Below, piece after piece: positions 46,771 through 52,295 of a stretch of 64,000 nucleotides of DNA. The stretch covers positions 51,004-115,003 of the forward strand of contig CANFEY010000006.1 of the NCBI GenBank assembly GCA_947446025.1, in the 5' to 3' direction. Below the pieces are notes generated by a model. It searched no databases. It was not told where the DNA came from and worked only from the letters and a program-made list of their open reading frames with translations. The position numbers and the translations under genes are program-made. Each line of letters opens with the position of its first letter. Within the stretch, counting starts at the first letter, position 1. This DNA comes from Bryobacterales bacterium. GTDB lineage: Bacteria > Acidobacteriota > Terriglobia > Bryobacterales > Bryobacteraceae.

Positions 46771-46839
46771 TCTGCGGCATAAAAGCGGACGCCTTGCATC
46801 CGGTGCCGATGGGCAGTAAGATTCTCTTGGAGGCTGGCA

Positions 46840-48171
46840 ATGAAGCTCTTACAGCGAATCTGGATTTCGGCTGCGGTGGCAATGGGGGCGGATGCTCCGG
46901 TCACCTTCAACAAAGACGTGCTGCCGGTGCTGCAGGCCAACTGCCAAGTGTGCCATCGTCCGGGCGAAGTGGCTCCCATGTCGCTGATGACGTATGCCGA
47001 GGCCCGGCCATACGCGCGCGCGATGAAAAATGCCGTGGTCACCGGGAAGATGCCGCCGTGGTTCGCGGATAAAAACGTGGGGCACTTTAAGAACGACAAG
47101 ACGCTGAGCGCCGACGCGGTGCGCGTGCTCTCCGCCTGGGCCGATGCGGGCGCGCCGGAGGGCAACGGCAAGGACAAGCCGGCGGCTCGCGCGTTTAACA
47201 GCGGCTGGAACATCAAGCCGGACGTGGTGGTGGAGATGCCGAAGCCGTTTGAGCTTCCCGCCAAGGGGACCATCAACTACAAGTTTGTCGTGGTGAAGAC
47301 GAACTTTGACCGCGACATGTGGGTGTCCGCCGCCGAGATGCGGGCAGGCAACACGGAAGTGCTGCATCATGGCAAGGTGTGGGTGCGGCCTCCGGGCTCG
47401 CAATGGCTGTCCAAGGCCGTCTACGGGGAAGCTTATGAAGTGGAAACGCAGCGCGACATCATCGGGCGCAATGCGGGCGAAGAGGGCAACGATATCCTGG
47501 GCAAGTTCAACCCTGGCCTGGGTCCGCAGTACTTTGACAGCGAGGGAGCGGCAAAGTTCATCCCCAAAGGATCGGACCTGGTGTTCGAGTTGCACTACAC
47601 AACCAATGGCAAGAACCCCACCTCGGACGCCTCGAAGGTGGGCTTCGTGCTGGCCAAGAATCCGCCCAAGACACGCTACTATTTCAATCCTGGACCGACG
47701 GCGTTGAATCTGGCAATTCCGGCTCGGGACGGGAATGCGGAGGTGGTCAGCGAGATCACGGTGCAGCAGGACATGAAACTGGTCTACGCCCAGCCGCACA
47801 TGCACGTACGCGGCAAGGACTTCGAACTGCGGTTGATTTATCCCACCGGCGAGATGCAATCGGTACTAAAGGGCAAGTGGGATTTCGAATGGCAGATGGG
47901 GTACGAGTTCGAAAAGCCGATTGTGATGCCCAAGGGCACGCGCATGGTGGCAATTTCGCATTTCGACAATTCGGCGAATAACCGCTTCAATCCGGACCCG
48001 GCGGCGAAGGTAATTTGGGGGCCGCAGAATTGGGACGAGATGAGCAACGTGTTTATCGGGGTGACGTTCGATGTGAACATTGACCCGAACGTGGTGTTCG
48101 GCCGGTCGGGTCCCAGCAATCTGCCCAGGGGCGATTCCGGGCCGACGCTTTCGGCGTTGCAGCTGAAGTAA
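46840..48171 (+). CDS. c-type cytochrome / copper type II monooxygenase-like protein
   Basis: CQVCHRPGEVAPMSL heme motif; PHMHVRGKDFELRLIYP. Confidence 0.8.
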   Translation: MKLLQRIWISAAVAMGADAPVTFNKDVLPVLQANCQVCHRPGEVAPMSLMTYAEARPYARAMKNAVVTGKMPPWFADKNVGHFKNDKTLSADAVRVLSAWADAGAPEGNGKDKPAARAFNSGWNIKPDVVVEMPKPFELPAKGTINYKFVVVKTNFDRDMWVSAAEMRAGNTEVLHHGKVWVRPPGSQWLSKAVYGEAYEVETQRDIIGRNAGEEGNDILGKFNPGLGPQYFDSEGAAKFIPKGSDLVFELHYTTNGKNPTSDASKVGFVLAKNPPKTRYYFNPGPTALNLAIPARDGNAEVVSEITVQQDMKLVYAQPHMHVRGKDFELRLIYPTGEMQSVLKGKWDFEWQMGYEFEKPIVMPKGTRMVAISHFDNSANNRFNPDPAAKVIWGPQNWDEMSNVFIGVTFDVNIDPNVVFGRSGPSNLPRGDSGPTLSALQLK

Positions 48172-48224
48172 AAAAGTTCTGGACTCTGCTGTGGGATAGA
48201 GCATAATAGTCAGCGAGGGTGAGG

Positions 48225-48827
48225 ATGAAAACGACCGTTCTTCTTGTAACTGGACTTTGCTTGATCGCAACCGGGTGTAAGCCGAAGGCTGTGGCAACCG
48301 GGGGAGGCACGACGCAGATTGCGGCACCAGTCGCTCCGCCGGAGGCACCGAAGCCTAAGCCGCAGCCGACGCCGACAGCGAAAGCCGAGGCTCCCAAGCC
48401 GGTAACCCAAGCCAAAGCTCAGCCGGCAGCGGAGGCGAAGAAGCTCACGCCGCAGCAGCGCACGGATCTGAACACGCTTCTGGCGAAGCTGGCGGACGCC
48501 TTCTTCGACTACAACCAGACCACCATCCGGGCGGACGCCTCGACGACCCTGGGGGCTAATGTCACCGCGATCCGCAACATCCTGGCGGAGTACCCGACCG
48601 AGAAGTTGCTGATCGAAGGGCACGCCGATGAGCGCGGGTCCTCTGAGTACAACCTTGCGTTGGCCGACAAGCGCAGCCGCTCGGCGCAGGAATTTCTGGC
48701 CACCCGGGGGATTCCGCAATCGCAGCTGAGCATCCTGAGCTACGGCGAAGAGCGGCCTGCGTGTACGGATCAGACCGAGGCTTGCTTTCAGCAGAATCGG
48801 CGCGTTCACATCGCTGTGGCGCCATAG
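48225..48827 (+). CDS. OmpA family (Pal-like) lipoprotein
   Basis: Lipobox LIATGC; IEGHADERGSSEYNLALADKRSRSAQEFL. Confidence 0.93.
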   Translation: MKTTVLLVTGLCLIATGCKPKAVATGGGTTQIAAPVAPPEAPKPKPQPTPTAKAEAPKPVTQAKAQPAAEAKKLTPQQRTDLNTLLAKLADAFFDYNQTTIRADASTTLGANVTAIRNILAEYPTEKLLIEGHADERGSSEYNLALADKRSRSAQEFLATRGIPQSQLSILSYGEERPACTDQTEACFQQNRRVHIAVAP

Positions 48828-48843
48828 GGGCAAGTATTTTGTG

Positions 48844-48865
48844 GCCCCAGGCTTACGCTTGGGGC
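48844..48865. repeat. GCCCCA palindrome, family 2
   Basis: GCCCCA-GGCTTACGCT-TGGGGC, 16 bp after the pal-like stop codon. Confidence 0.7.
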
Positions 48866-48891
48866 TACAGCGTTGCAACCATTCCGCCGTT

Positions 48892-49975
48892 ATGGTGAAG
48901 TGGGAGTATGCCTCGCGTGAAACTTCTGGTTTGTTTTCCCTTTTGTTCCTGCTCGGAGCCTGTACCAGGGACCCGCACGCACTTGCGGTCCGGTACGTGG
49001 AGAACGGAAACAAGTTCTTCGAGCGGGAAAAATACAAAGAAGCATCGCTGATGTACCGGCGTGCCGTGGCCGCCAACGCGGGCCCGTTGTTCGGGGAGGC
49101 CTACTACCGGCTTGGCCTGACGGCGATGAAACTATCCGACGTAGGCAGTGCTTACCGGGCATTTGTGCGCGCGGTGGAACTGCAAAAGAACAACGTCGAT
49201 GCGCTCACCAAGACGGCGGATATTGAGATCCTGGCGGCCACGCAGGGCGGCAAGCAAGGGGACAGTTTCTTACAGAGCGCGAAGGACCGCGCCACGCAAC
49301 TGCTCAAGATGAAGGACGGTTCCTACGATGGGTACCGCATGCTGGGGCAGATCGCGCTGCTGAACAAACAGCCGGTCGAAGCGGTGCACAATCTGGAACT
49401 GGCGAACAAGATCAAGCCCGATCAAGCGCCCTTGATTCTGGCGTATTTTACGGCTCTGGTGCAGAACAATCAGTTTGCCGAAGCCGAGGTCGCGGCAAAA
49501 TCGCTCATCGCCAAACAGAAAGACTACGGAAGAACTCCCGTCGGGATCACAAAGGAAATTCCGAATGAAACCAAACCCTAATCTCTATTTAGAAACCAAT
49601 CCAGAAGGCGAGACAATACGTCTGTATGAGCATGTGGACGGTTTCTTTGTTCTTGAGGGGAAATACCCTACTGGAATCATTGATCCTTTTGTGCGTGGTC
49701 CAAAAGAAGTTTCAGAATTGGAAGATCTTGCACAAAGTTTCCAGCGCGGTGTACGTCTAGACAAAATTTTTATTTAAAATAGTTCTTGCTTTTTCCGAAT
49801 TTCGGAATATGATCGAGTTTGTCCAGGCAGCCCGGTCTACCGGATGCACTACGCCATGGCCCTGAAACAGAAGGGCGACCTTCCTGCCGCCAAGCGCGAG
49901 CTCGAGGCGGCACTCAACAGCGGACCCTCCAAGGACGAAGCTGCCAAAATTCAAGAATTGCTGCGGACGCTGTAG
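48892..49975 (+). pseudogene. TPR lipoprotein gene with central region replaced by AT-rich DNA
   Basis: N-part up to AAKSLIAKQKDYG; C-part PVYRMHYAMALKQKGDLPAAKRELEAALNSG...LLRTL* (to 49975); about 49531-49828 is different in composition. Confidence 0.75.
49565..49777 (+). CDS. Small hypothetical protein inside AT-rich insert
   Basis: MKPNPNLYLETNPEGETIRLYEHVDGFFVLEGKYPTGIIDPFVRGPKEVSELEDLAQSFQRGVRLDKIFI (70 aa). Confidence 0.5.
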   Translation: MKPNPNLYLETNPEGETIRLYEHVDGFFVLEGKYPTGIIDPFVRGPKEVSELEDLAQSFQRGVRLDKIFI

Positions 49976-49993
49976 GCCGGCCGGTACCTCATT

Positions 49994-50647
49994 TTGACGT
50001 CGACTCCTTACGTTGCCCCGTTCGTAGTGTTTGTGGGCTTCATGGCCCTGCACTCCATGGCGGGCCTTCCGGCGCTGGCTGAGCAGGCATTGTGGCTCGC
50101 GGGCATGTGCGCCGTCATCGCCTTGGTGGCGCGGCCAGTGCTGGACTTCCGCGTACGGAAGTGGGGTCTCAGCTTGGCGCTGGGAATCGGCGTATTCCTG
50201 CTGTGGATCGCCCCCGACCTGCTGATTCCCGGCTACCGCTCGCACTGGCTGTTTTCGAATTCCATCACCGGGTCCGTAGCAGCAGGTCTGGCGGAAGCGG
50301 ATCGCTCAAACACCGCGGTTCTCCTCTTGTGCGGGCTGCGGGCCGCCTTGATCGTGCCCATCGTCGAAGAACTGTTCTGGCGGGCCTGGCTGATGCGCTG
50401 GCTGGTCAACGAGCAATTCTGGAAAGTGGAGCTGGGCGCCTACGCCCCCAAGGCTTTCTGGCTGGTGGCCGTGATGTTCGCGGTGGAACATGGACCCTAC
50501 TGGGACGTGGGGCTAGCCTGCGGGATTCTTTACAATTGGTGGATGGTACGCACCAAGAGCCTTGGAGATCTCATCCTGGTTCATGGTGTGACCAATGCCT
50601 GCCTGAGCGTCTATGTGGTCGCGGCGGGGAAATGGGAATACTGGTAA
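49994..50647 (+). CDS. CPBP/CAAX protease-related membrane protein (PEP-CTERM-associated type)
   Basis: PIVEELFWRAWLMRWLVN, FAVEHGPYWDVGLACGILYNWW, LVHGVTNACLSVYV. Confidence 0.85.
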   Translation: MTSTPYVAPFVVFVGFMALHSMAGLPALAEQALWLAGMCAVIALVARPVLDFRVRKWGLSLALGIGVFLLWIAPDLLIPGYRSHWLFSNSITGSVAAGLAEADRSNTAVLLLCGLRAALIVPIVEELFWRAWLMRWLVNEQFWKVELGAYAPKAFWLVAVMFAVEHGPYWDVGLACGILYNWWMVRTKSLGDLILVHGVTNACLSVYVVAAGKWEYW

Positions 50648-50658
50648 CACAACAAAAC

Positions 50659-51462
50659 ATGATTGAACAGATACGGCCCGGCACGTCTGCATCCGGCGCG
50701 CGCGTGGCCATTTTCGATTTCGACGGAACCATTTCACTGATCCGCTCCGGGTGGGTGGACGTGATGGTGCCCATGATGGTGGAAATCCTGGCGGACCTGA
50801 AGACCGGTGAATCGGAAGCCAGCCTGCGGGAAGTGGTACACGAATTTGTGTGGCGGCTCACCGGCAAAGAGACCATCTACCAGATGATGGAGTTCGCGGA
50901 CAATGTGCGGTCGCGCGGCGGCACTGCGAAGCAGCCGAGCGAGTACAAGAAAATGTATCTGGACCTGCTATGGGTCAAGATCCGCGGCCGGGTGGAGGAG
51001 TTGCGCCAGGGCAATGCCTCGCCCGAGCAGTATCTGGTCCCCGGCGCGCGGCAGTTGCTGGAAGGCTTGAAAAACCAGGGTCTGAAGATGTATCTGGCCA
51101 GCGGCACCGATCACGCGAACGTCGTCGAAGAATCGGGTTTGCTGGACGTCTCGCGCTACTTTGACGGCGGCGTATTCGGCGCCCAGGATGACCTCACCAG
51201 CTTTTCCAAGAAGCTGCTCATCCAGCGCATCATCTCCGGAACCGACGTCGCGGGCCACCAGATTGTGGGCTTCGGCGACGGGTATGTGGAGATCGAAGAA
51301 GTGAAGCTGGTGGGCGGCATCGCGGTGGGCGTGGCGACCAAAGAGCCGGCCTGCGCGGAAGTCGACGATTGGAAGCGAGACCGGCTGGTGGGCGTGGGAG
51401 CCGACTTCATTGTCCCGAACTTTGAGCGGCACGCGGAGTTGACCGGACTGCTGTTTGCATGA
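50659..51462 (+). CDS. HAD family hydrolase
   Basis: VAIFDFDGTISLIR, YLASGTDH, IVGFGDGYVEIEE. Confidence 0.9.
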   Translation: MIEQIRPGTSASGARVAIFDFDGTISLIRSGWVDVMVPMMVEILADLKTGESEASLREVVHEFVWRLTGKETIYQMMEFADNVRSRGGTAKQPSEYKKMYLDLLWVKIRGRVEELRQGNASPEQYLVPGARQLLEGLKNQGLKMYLASGTDHANVVEESGLLDVSRYFDGGVFGAQDDLTSFSKKLLIQRIISGTDVAGHQIVGFGDGYVEIEEVKLVGGIAVGVATKEPACAEVDDWKRDRLVGVGADFIVPNFERHAELTGLLFA

Positions 51463-52295
51463 AGACGCTGGCCATCGACATCGGCGGGACCAAGCTCGCG
51501 CTGGCGTTGTTTGAGGATGGCAAGATCGTGCAACAAGCGCGACGGCCCACGGACCGGGAGCGCGGTCCAGCCTATGCGCTGCCTGAGATCGCTGCCATCG
51601 CAAAGCAATGGTCTGGCTTCGAGGCGTGCGGCGTAGGCTTCGGCGGACCGGTGGATTTCGACAACCAGCGGGTGGCGCTCTCCACACATGCCGCCGGTTG
51701 GGACGGCTTCCCCCTCCGGGACCACTTACAGGCAGTGCTGGGAGTGCCCGTCATCATCGACAACGACGCCAACGTTGCGGCGCTGGGCGAATCCCGCTTC
51801 GGTGCCGGTGTCGGCCAGCTTCCGATGTTCTACATAACAGTTTCCACGGGCGTCGGCGGAGGGTTGGTCCTGGCGGACGGCTGCGTCTATCGCGGCGCGA
51901 ATTCGTGGGCCTGCGAGATCGGGCACTTGACGATTCGTCCCGGCGGCCCGGAGTGCCTGTGCGGCGCGCGCGGATGCCTGGAGCGCATGTGCTGCGGCCT
52001 GTGGCTGGAGCGTGACCACGGGCAGTCTCCCCGCGCTTTGTTCGAGGACGCCGCGTTTGTAGAGCGCTACGTGGTGGACCTGGCTCTGGGCGTGAAGGCG
52101 GCGCTGATGCTGCTGAATCCCGCCGTGGTGGTCATCGGCGGCGGAATCGCGCAGGCGGGCGACCGGTTGTTCGTCCCCTTGCGGGAAGAATTGGCCCGTC
52201 AGTGGCCGGATTGGTCAGGCGCGCGGACCGAAGTGCTGCAAGCGGCGCTGGGAGAACACAGTGTGTTGTGGGGCGCGTACGCCCTGACCGAATGA
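51459..52295 (+). CDS. ROK family sugar kinase
   Basis: LAIDIGGTKLALALFE, VIIDNDANVAALGE, VSTGVGGGLVLADG, CGARGCLE. Confidence 0.93.
   Translation: MKTLAIDIGGTKLALALFEDGKIVQQARRPTDRERGPAYALPEIAAIAKQWSGFEACGVGFGGPVDFDNQRVALSTHAAGWDGFPLRDHLQAVLGVPVIIDNDANVAALGESRFGAGVGQLPMFYITVSTGVGGGLVLADGCVYRGANSWACEIGHLTIRPGGPECLCGARGCLERMCCGLWLERDHGQSPRALFEDAAFVERYVVDLALGVKAALMLLNPAVVVIGGGIAQAGDRLFVPLREELARQWPDWSGARTEVLQAALGEHSVLWGAYALTE

Follow-up and report, generated by a model that had tools for sequence, protein, structure and literature searches.

The window, a 64-kb stretch of DNA from a Bryobacterales genome (G000), contains a TPR gene that has been broken in two, with an AT-rich patch between its pieces. 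The N-terminal remnant of this PrsT-like lipoprotein gene lies on the forward strand at 48841-49530 and was identified by its identity to orthologs and by TPR matches in a Pfam search. Its reading frame, with a GTG start as listed, spans 48841-49581, and the last ~16 residues before the stop at 49581 are foreign. The C-terminal remnant (PVYRMHYAMALKQKG..LLRTL*), recognized by ortholog identity and synteny, occupies 49821-49975 on the same strand, and no separate start is evident in it. The upstream neighbor of the broken gene is a Pal-type (OmpA-like) lipoprotein gene (48219-48827), while downstream lies a CAAX-protease-like gene (49994-50647) that matches TIGR03008 with 115 bits (cut-off 81).

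Uninterrupted versions of the TPR gene were recovered from two genomes of the same genus, G014 (769 aa) and G007 (781 aa), which were the most similar at this gene among the genomes searched and have the same neighboring genes on both sides. The best NCBIfam model for the intact G014 ortholog is TIGR02917 (XrtA/PEP-CTERM TPR protein PrsT), which makes PrsT its best named relative, and it is followed by the TIGR03008-matching gene (CAAX prenyl protease-related); however, the score of 251 bits falls below the cut-off of 312, and the gene is PrsT-like only. Amino acid identity to the G014 ortholog is 68-77% for the N-terminal remnant and 85% for the C-terminal remnant (47 codons, aligned with the end of the ortholog), and nucleotide identity between the window and G014 reaches 76% over 46829-49515 and 74% over 49832-52285.

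The preliminary description of this DNA had proposed that TPR likeness breaks off and that a C-terminal end resumes at about 49829, several repeats having been lost between. Matching of both remnants to the intact orthologs bears out the interruption and the resumption, but places the return of homology a few bases earlier, from ~49820. Codon comparison with G014 and G007 sets the left edge at ~49528-49530, and the right edge at ~49818-49823; in the nucleotide alignment homology has resumed by 49832. By either ortholog, 515 codons (1,545 bp) have been lost, and ~290 bp now occupies their place. The missing middle is absent from the rest of the assembly, where paralogs of no more than 41% are all that matches, the best of them on contig 85. 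The N-terminal remnant has not evolved markedly faster than its G014 counterpart (17 versus 9 unique amino acid changes, with ratios of 28:13, 25:13 and 6:15 in neighbor genes), and for this reason the loss in the TPR gene looks recent. Separately, the signal-peptide region of the remnant (48909-48975) has lost 1 nt with respect to both G014 and G007, which breaks the ancestral ATG frame; an ATG farther upstream (MVKWEY...), in frame with the lipobox, could preserve a lipoprotein-like start.

The patch between the remnants was described at the outset as strikingly AT-rich, and it is indeed the lowest-GC stretch of its size in the window. Positions 49531-49828 have a GC content of 40.9%, while the mean for 298-bp windows across the 64 kb is 61.7% (sd 3.9%), with a minimum of 40.6% located exactly at the patch. 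Comparison with G014 divides this DNA into three parts, all assigned to the forward strand. The central part is a core unit of 257 bp (49557-49813) common to both genomes, with 95.4% identity over 49557-49774 and 98% over 49770-49813; it begins ATTCCGAATGAAACC and closes TTTCGGAAT. To its left lies a filler of ~27 bp (49530-49556) that is neither TPR-derived nor common to the G014 copy; its alignment to TPR orthologs was no better than that of shuffled sequences, and no match was found in the loci examined. This filler holds AAAGGAA, which might serve the small ORF of the core as a ribosome-binding site. To the right, a filler of a few bp (49814-49820), delimited by codon comparison with G014 and G007, precedes the resumed TPR homology. 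Leftover TPR sequence was ruled out as the source of the fillers, neither of which aligns as TPR.

An inverted repeat and a 15-nt palindrome, already reported for the segment, exist at the positions given for them. The left repeat, ATTCCGAA (49558-49565, forward strand), coincides with the left homology boundary, and the right repeat, TTCGGAAT (49801-49808, forward strand), lies 5 bp inside the right one. The palindrome TTCCGAATTTCGGAA (49793-49807, without strand), at the 3' end of the core, is unchanged on contig 20 of G014. Taken alone, both features are unremarkable: an 8-bp inverted repeat with arms more than 100 bp apart occurs in 37% of composition-matched random sequences, and any 7+7 palindrome in 10%. 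The inverted repeat gains its meaning from its position, since it bounds on both sides the 257 bp that G014 also has. A search of IMG/VR with the palindrome pattern returned three contigs, two of them alike around the match and none with a similar ORF, and these were judged to be chance matches. A structured RNA or intron was rejected as an explanation of the segment (no Rfam match up to E=1; folding z-scores of +0.85 and -1.0), as were tandem repeats in the region.

The core carries a single small gene. Its ORF of 70 aa (49565-49777, forward strand, ATG to TAA, 39.9% GC) was found as originally annotated; starting it from a TTG at 49475 would lengthen it to 100 aa, at the cost of overlap with the TPR frame. 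Relatives were sought across the family (237 genomes) and the phylum (396), and also in GTDB genome contigs, IMG/VR, plasmids and phages; the sole one found was a 96% identical protein on contig 29 of G014 (CALQCC020000029.1, a metagenome-assembled genome). Weak matches from the genomes of the family (E 0.004-0.07) were discarded as short stretches within long unrelated frames. Nor was the unit's DNA found in plasmids. The record CALQCC020000029.1 is titled Bordetella parapertussis, apparently a mislabel, as its kinship is with the window's own genus. Profile searches of the ORF against Pfam, PHROGs, NCBIfam, PADLOC and PDB assigned it to no family, and AlphaFold, run on two sequences, gave low confidence (pLDDT 47) and no usable model. 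The two copies of the ORF differ in 10 codons, with seven synonymous changes over 47 sites and three non-synonymous changes over 163 sites (Fisher p=0.0013). This synonymous excess indicates purifying selection on the frame and, judged by this substitution pattern, the orphan ORF is a genuine coding sequence. The AAAGGAA site and the overlap with the TPR frame make translation of the predicted gene possible.

The search for the protein in other genomes yielded one further copy, in G014, with the same ends. This copy sits at another locus, after a DUF6152 gene, and its DNA is 95.4% identical to that of the window copy, versus 74-76% for the inherited flanks. The combination of 95% identity, flanks at about 75% and a different locus shows that the unit was acquired horizontally and not by vertical descent in place from the common ancestor. 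Leaving aside an IS in the G014 copy, the two copies share 49557-49813 and nothing clear outside; the 36 non-coding bp after the stop codon are nearly identical (98% over 44 bp), and then homology ends abruptly. It is at these shared ends that the inverted repeat ATTCCGAA/TTCGGAAT lies, which had been named beforehand without any comparison; the chance probability of this agreement is ~8e-4.

On its left, the G014 copy has ~45 bp of further AT-rich DNA that is not common to the window copy. It was later split by the IS, which is flanked on both sides by a 4-bp duplication, TTAT, and has the ends TGACCTG(CC/AT)CCCCAT(A/T)TTCCG. The left part of the unit is on contig 29 and its right part forms the start of contig 20; synteny with G019 confirms that the two contigs adjoin. 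An IS with those ends, probably of the IS3 family, occupies four or more sites in G014, each at the end of a contig, and occurs in G007 at ~90% identity. At the corresponding locus G000 is empty: YjbQ comes immediately after the DUF6152 gene, and then an intact HEAT-like gene. In G014 the HEAT-like gene breaks off after 108 of its 317 residues, at the end of the unit, and the rest of it was not recovered in that genome. Of 23 genomes in the genus, only G000 (C70:165-1115) and, in truncated form, G014 (C20:192-497) have this 317-aa gene, and with so narrow a distribution the original gene order at the G014 locus is uncertain. DUF6152-type proteins are greatly expanded in the genus: many of its genomes encode ~30 to 70 of them, and the window's genome has 50.

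Both known copies therefore sit where a gene has been broken and has lost DNA, each species lacks the unit at the other's locus, and each genome (G000 and G014) has one copy. No target-site duplication was found in either, the flanks differing on the two sides; such a duplication could have been lost together with the deletion.

These data are best read as the insertion, with loss of host DNA, of a minute ORF unit that is non-autonomous and has defined ends. We give a probability of about 0.55 to a recent insertion-with-deletion scar, in which a defined AT-rich unit moved in and was joined into a break. The 257-bp unit, with inverted-repeat ends ATTCCGAA...TTCGGAAT and one 70-aa gene, would have arrived from outside, having moved as a defined piece; it would then have been joined into the broken chromosome, with the intervening host DNA lost and a few filler bases added, leaving a shortened N-terminal frame and a C-terminal TPR remnant. 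Because the unit encodes no transposase and is single-copy, it is classed as non-autonomous. Ku (E=6e-49) adjoins LigD in this genome, the latter with PE (phosphoesterase), ligase and Prim-Pol (primase-polymerase) domains, and the two could seal the joint. NHEJ reportedly acquires heterologous DNA, to judge from the title of one paper. End joining would account for the fillers and the deletions, but alone it leaves the recurrence of the same two ends unexplained, which suggests a unit with recognized ends. We infer that the inverted repeats are those ends, that one event made both the deletion and the insertion, and that end joining sealed the junctions, the route having been either transposition or end-joining capture; deletion and insertion could also have been separate events. 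The initial suggestion of a small mobile cassette and an accompanying deletion gains support from the same ends at two loci, each at a broken gene; the claim of mobility rests on the shared ends and displaced loci of two copies. Several points weigh against this scar reading: there is a single copy per genome, neither copy has a target-site duplication, the inverted repeat is only 8 bp long, the ~45 bp to the left of the G014 copy have no counterpart in the window, and the original gene order at the G014 locus is uncertain. In addition, bacterial end joining, which can produce deletions and nucleotide insertions, left deletions in Rhizobium etli that were mostly 1-6 bp, the largest being 136 bp (PMC10932983).

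The main rival is plain transposition with an adjacent deletion, by which a MITE-like non-autonomous element was moved in trans by a transposase recognizing ATTCCGAA ends, flanking DNA being deleted at or after insertion. Two copies whose defined ends match the inverted repeat, both hosted by deletion edges, speak for this explanation, but the single copy per genome, the absent target duplication and the filler on both sides of the window copy, unlike the result of a single adjacent deletion, make it doubtful; moreover, no transposase with such ends has so far come to light. Random capture, in which a foreign fragment with a small gene was caught at a break and its ends simply follow the gene and its 3' region, is improbable. 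It would treat the inverted repeat as chance, in line with the 37% frequency given above, and it accommodates both the Ku and LigD of the host and a left boundary just upstream of the start codon; nevertheless, two separate captures are not expected to have both ends in common, nor to retain a nearly identical non-coding stretch after the stop codon that halts abruptly. An assembly join or chimera, raised as an alternative in the preliminary description and conceivable in a draft genome of 120 contigs, is highly improbable given that both flanks are syntenic and in the correct order against two sister genomes, that a separate assembly carries the unit at a broken gene with the same ends and 4-5% divergence, and that the ORF is under coding selection.

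The overall picture is of a very small gene unit, apparently transferable, that settled in the scar of a deletion; it is a clear case of an orphan gene gained horizontally and an ancestral gene lost within one scar. If more copies confirm it, it would represent a very small gene-carrying transferable unit, and pairs of occupied, empty and IS-split sites would make the joining mechanism, transposition or end joining, readable from the junctions. A broader and unlikely proposition is that it belongs to a new minimal mobile class, with a single small gene and ~8-bp inverted-repeat ends, joined as a defined excised piece into double-strand breaks across species, each copy marking a deletion.

Among known systems, insertion-deletion scars left by Ku and LigD resemble this locus in that host DNA is lost and unrelated filler is inserted, and the genes are encoded by this host; the difference is that here both ends of the inserted piece recur in a second species. 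Integron gene cassettes likewise are compact units with one small ORF and a 5' end near the start codon, but the unit has no attC core motifs, and the assignment was rejected after neither RYYYAAC nor GTTRRRY was found on either strand of 49520-49840. MITEs and non-autonomous IS derivatives share with the unit a size of ~250 bp, an AT-rich composition, short terminal inverted repeats and the lack of a transposase, and ATTCCGAA/TTCGGAAT do stand at both homology boundaries, though they are 8 bp long. MITE-type elements usually occur in many copies. The present unit differs from them in being single-copy per genome and without target-site duplication in both G000 and G014, in lying at deletion edges, and in carrying an ORF under purifying selection.
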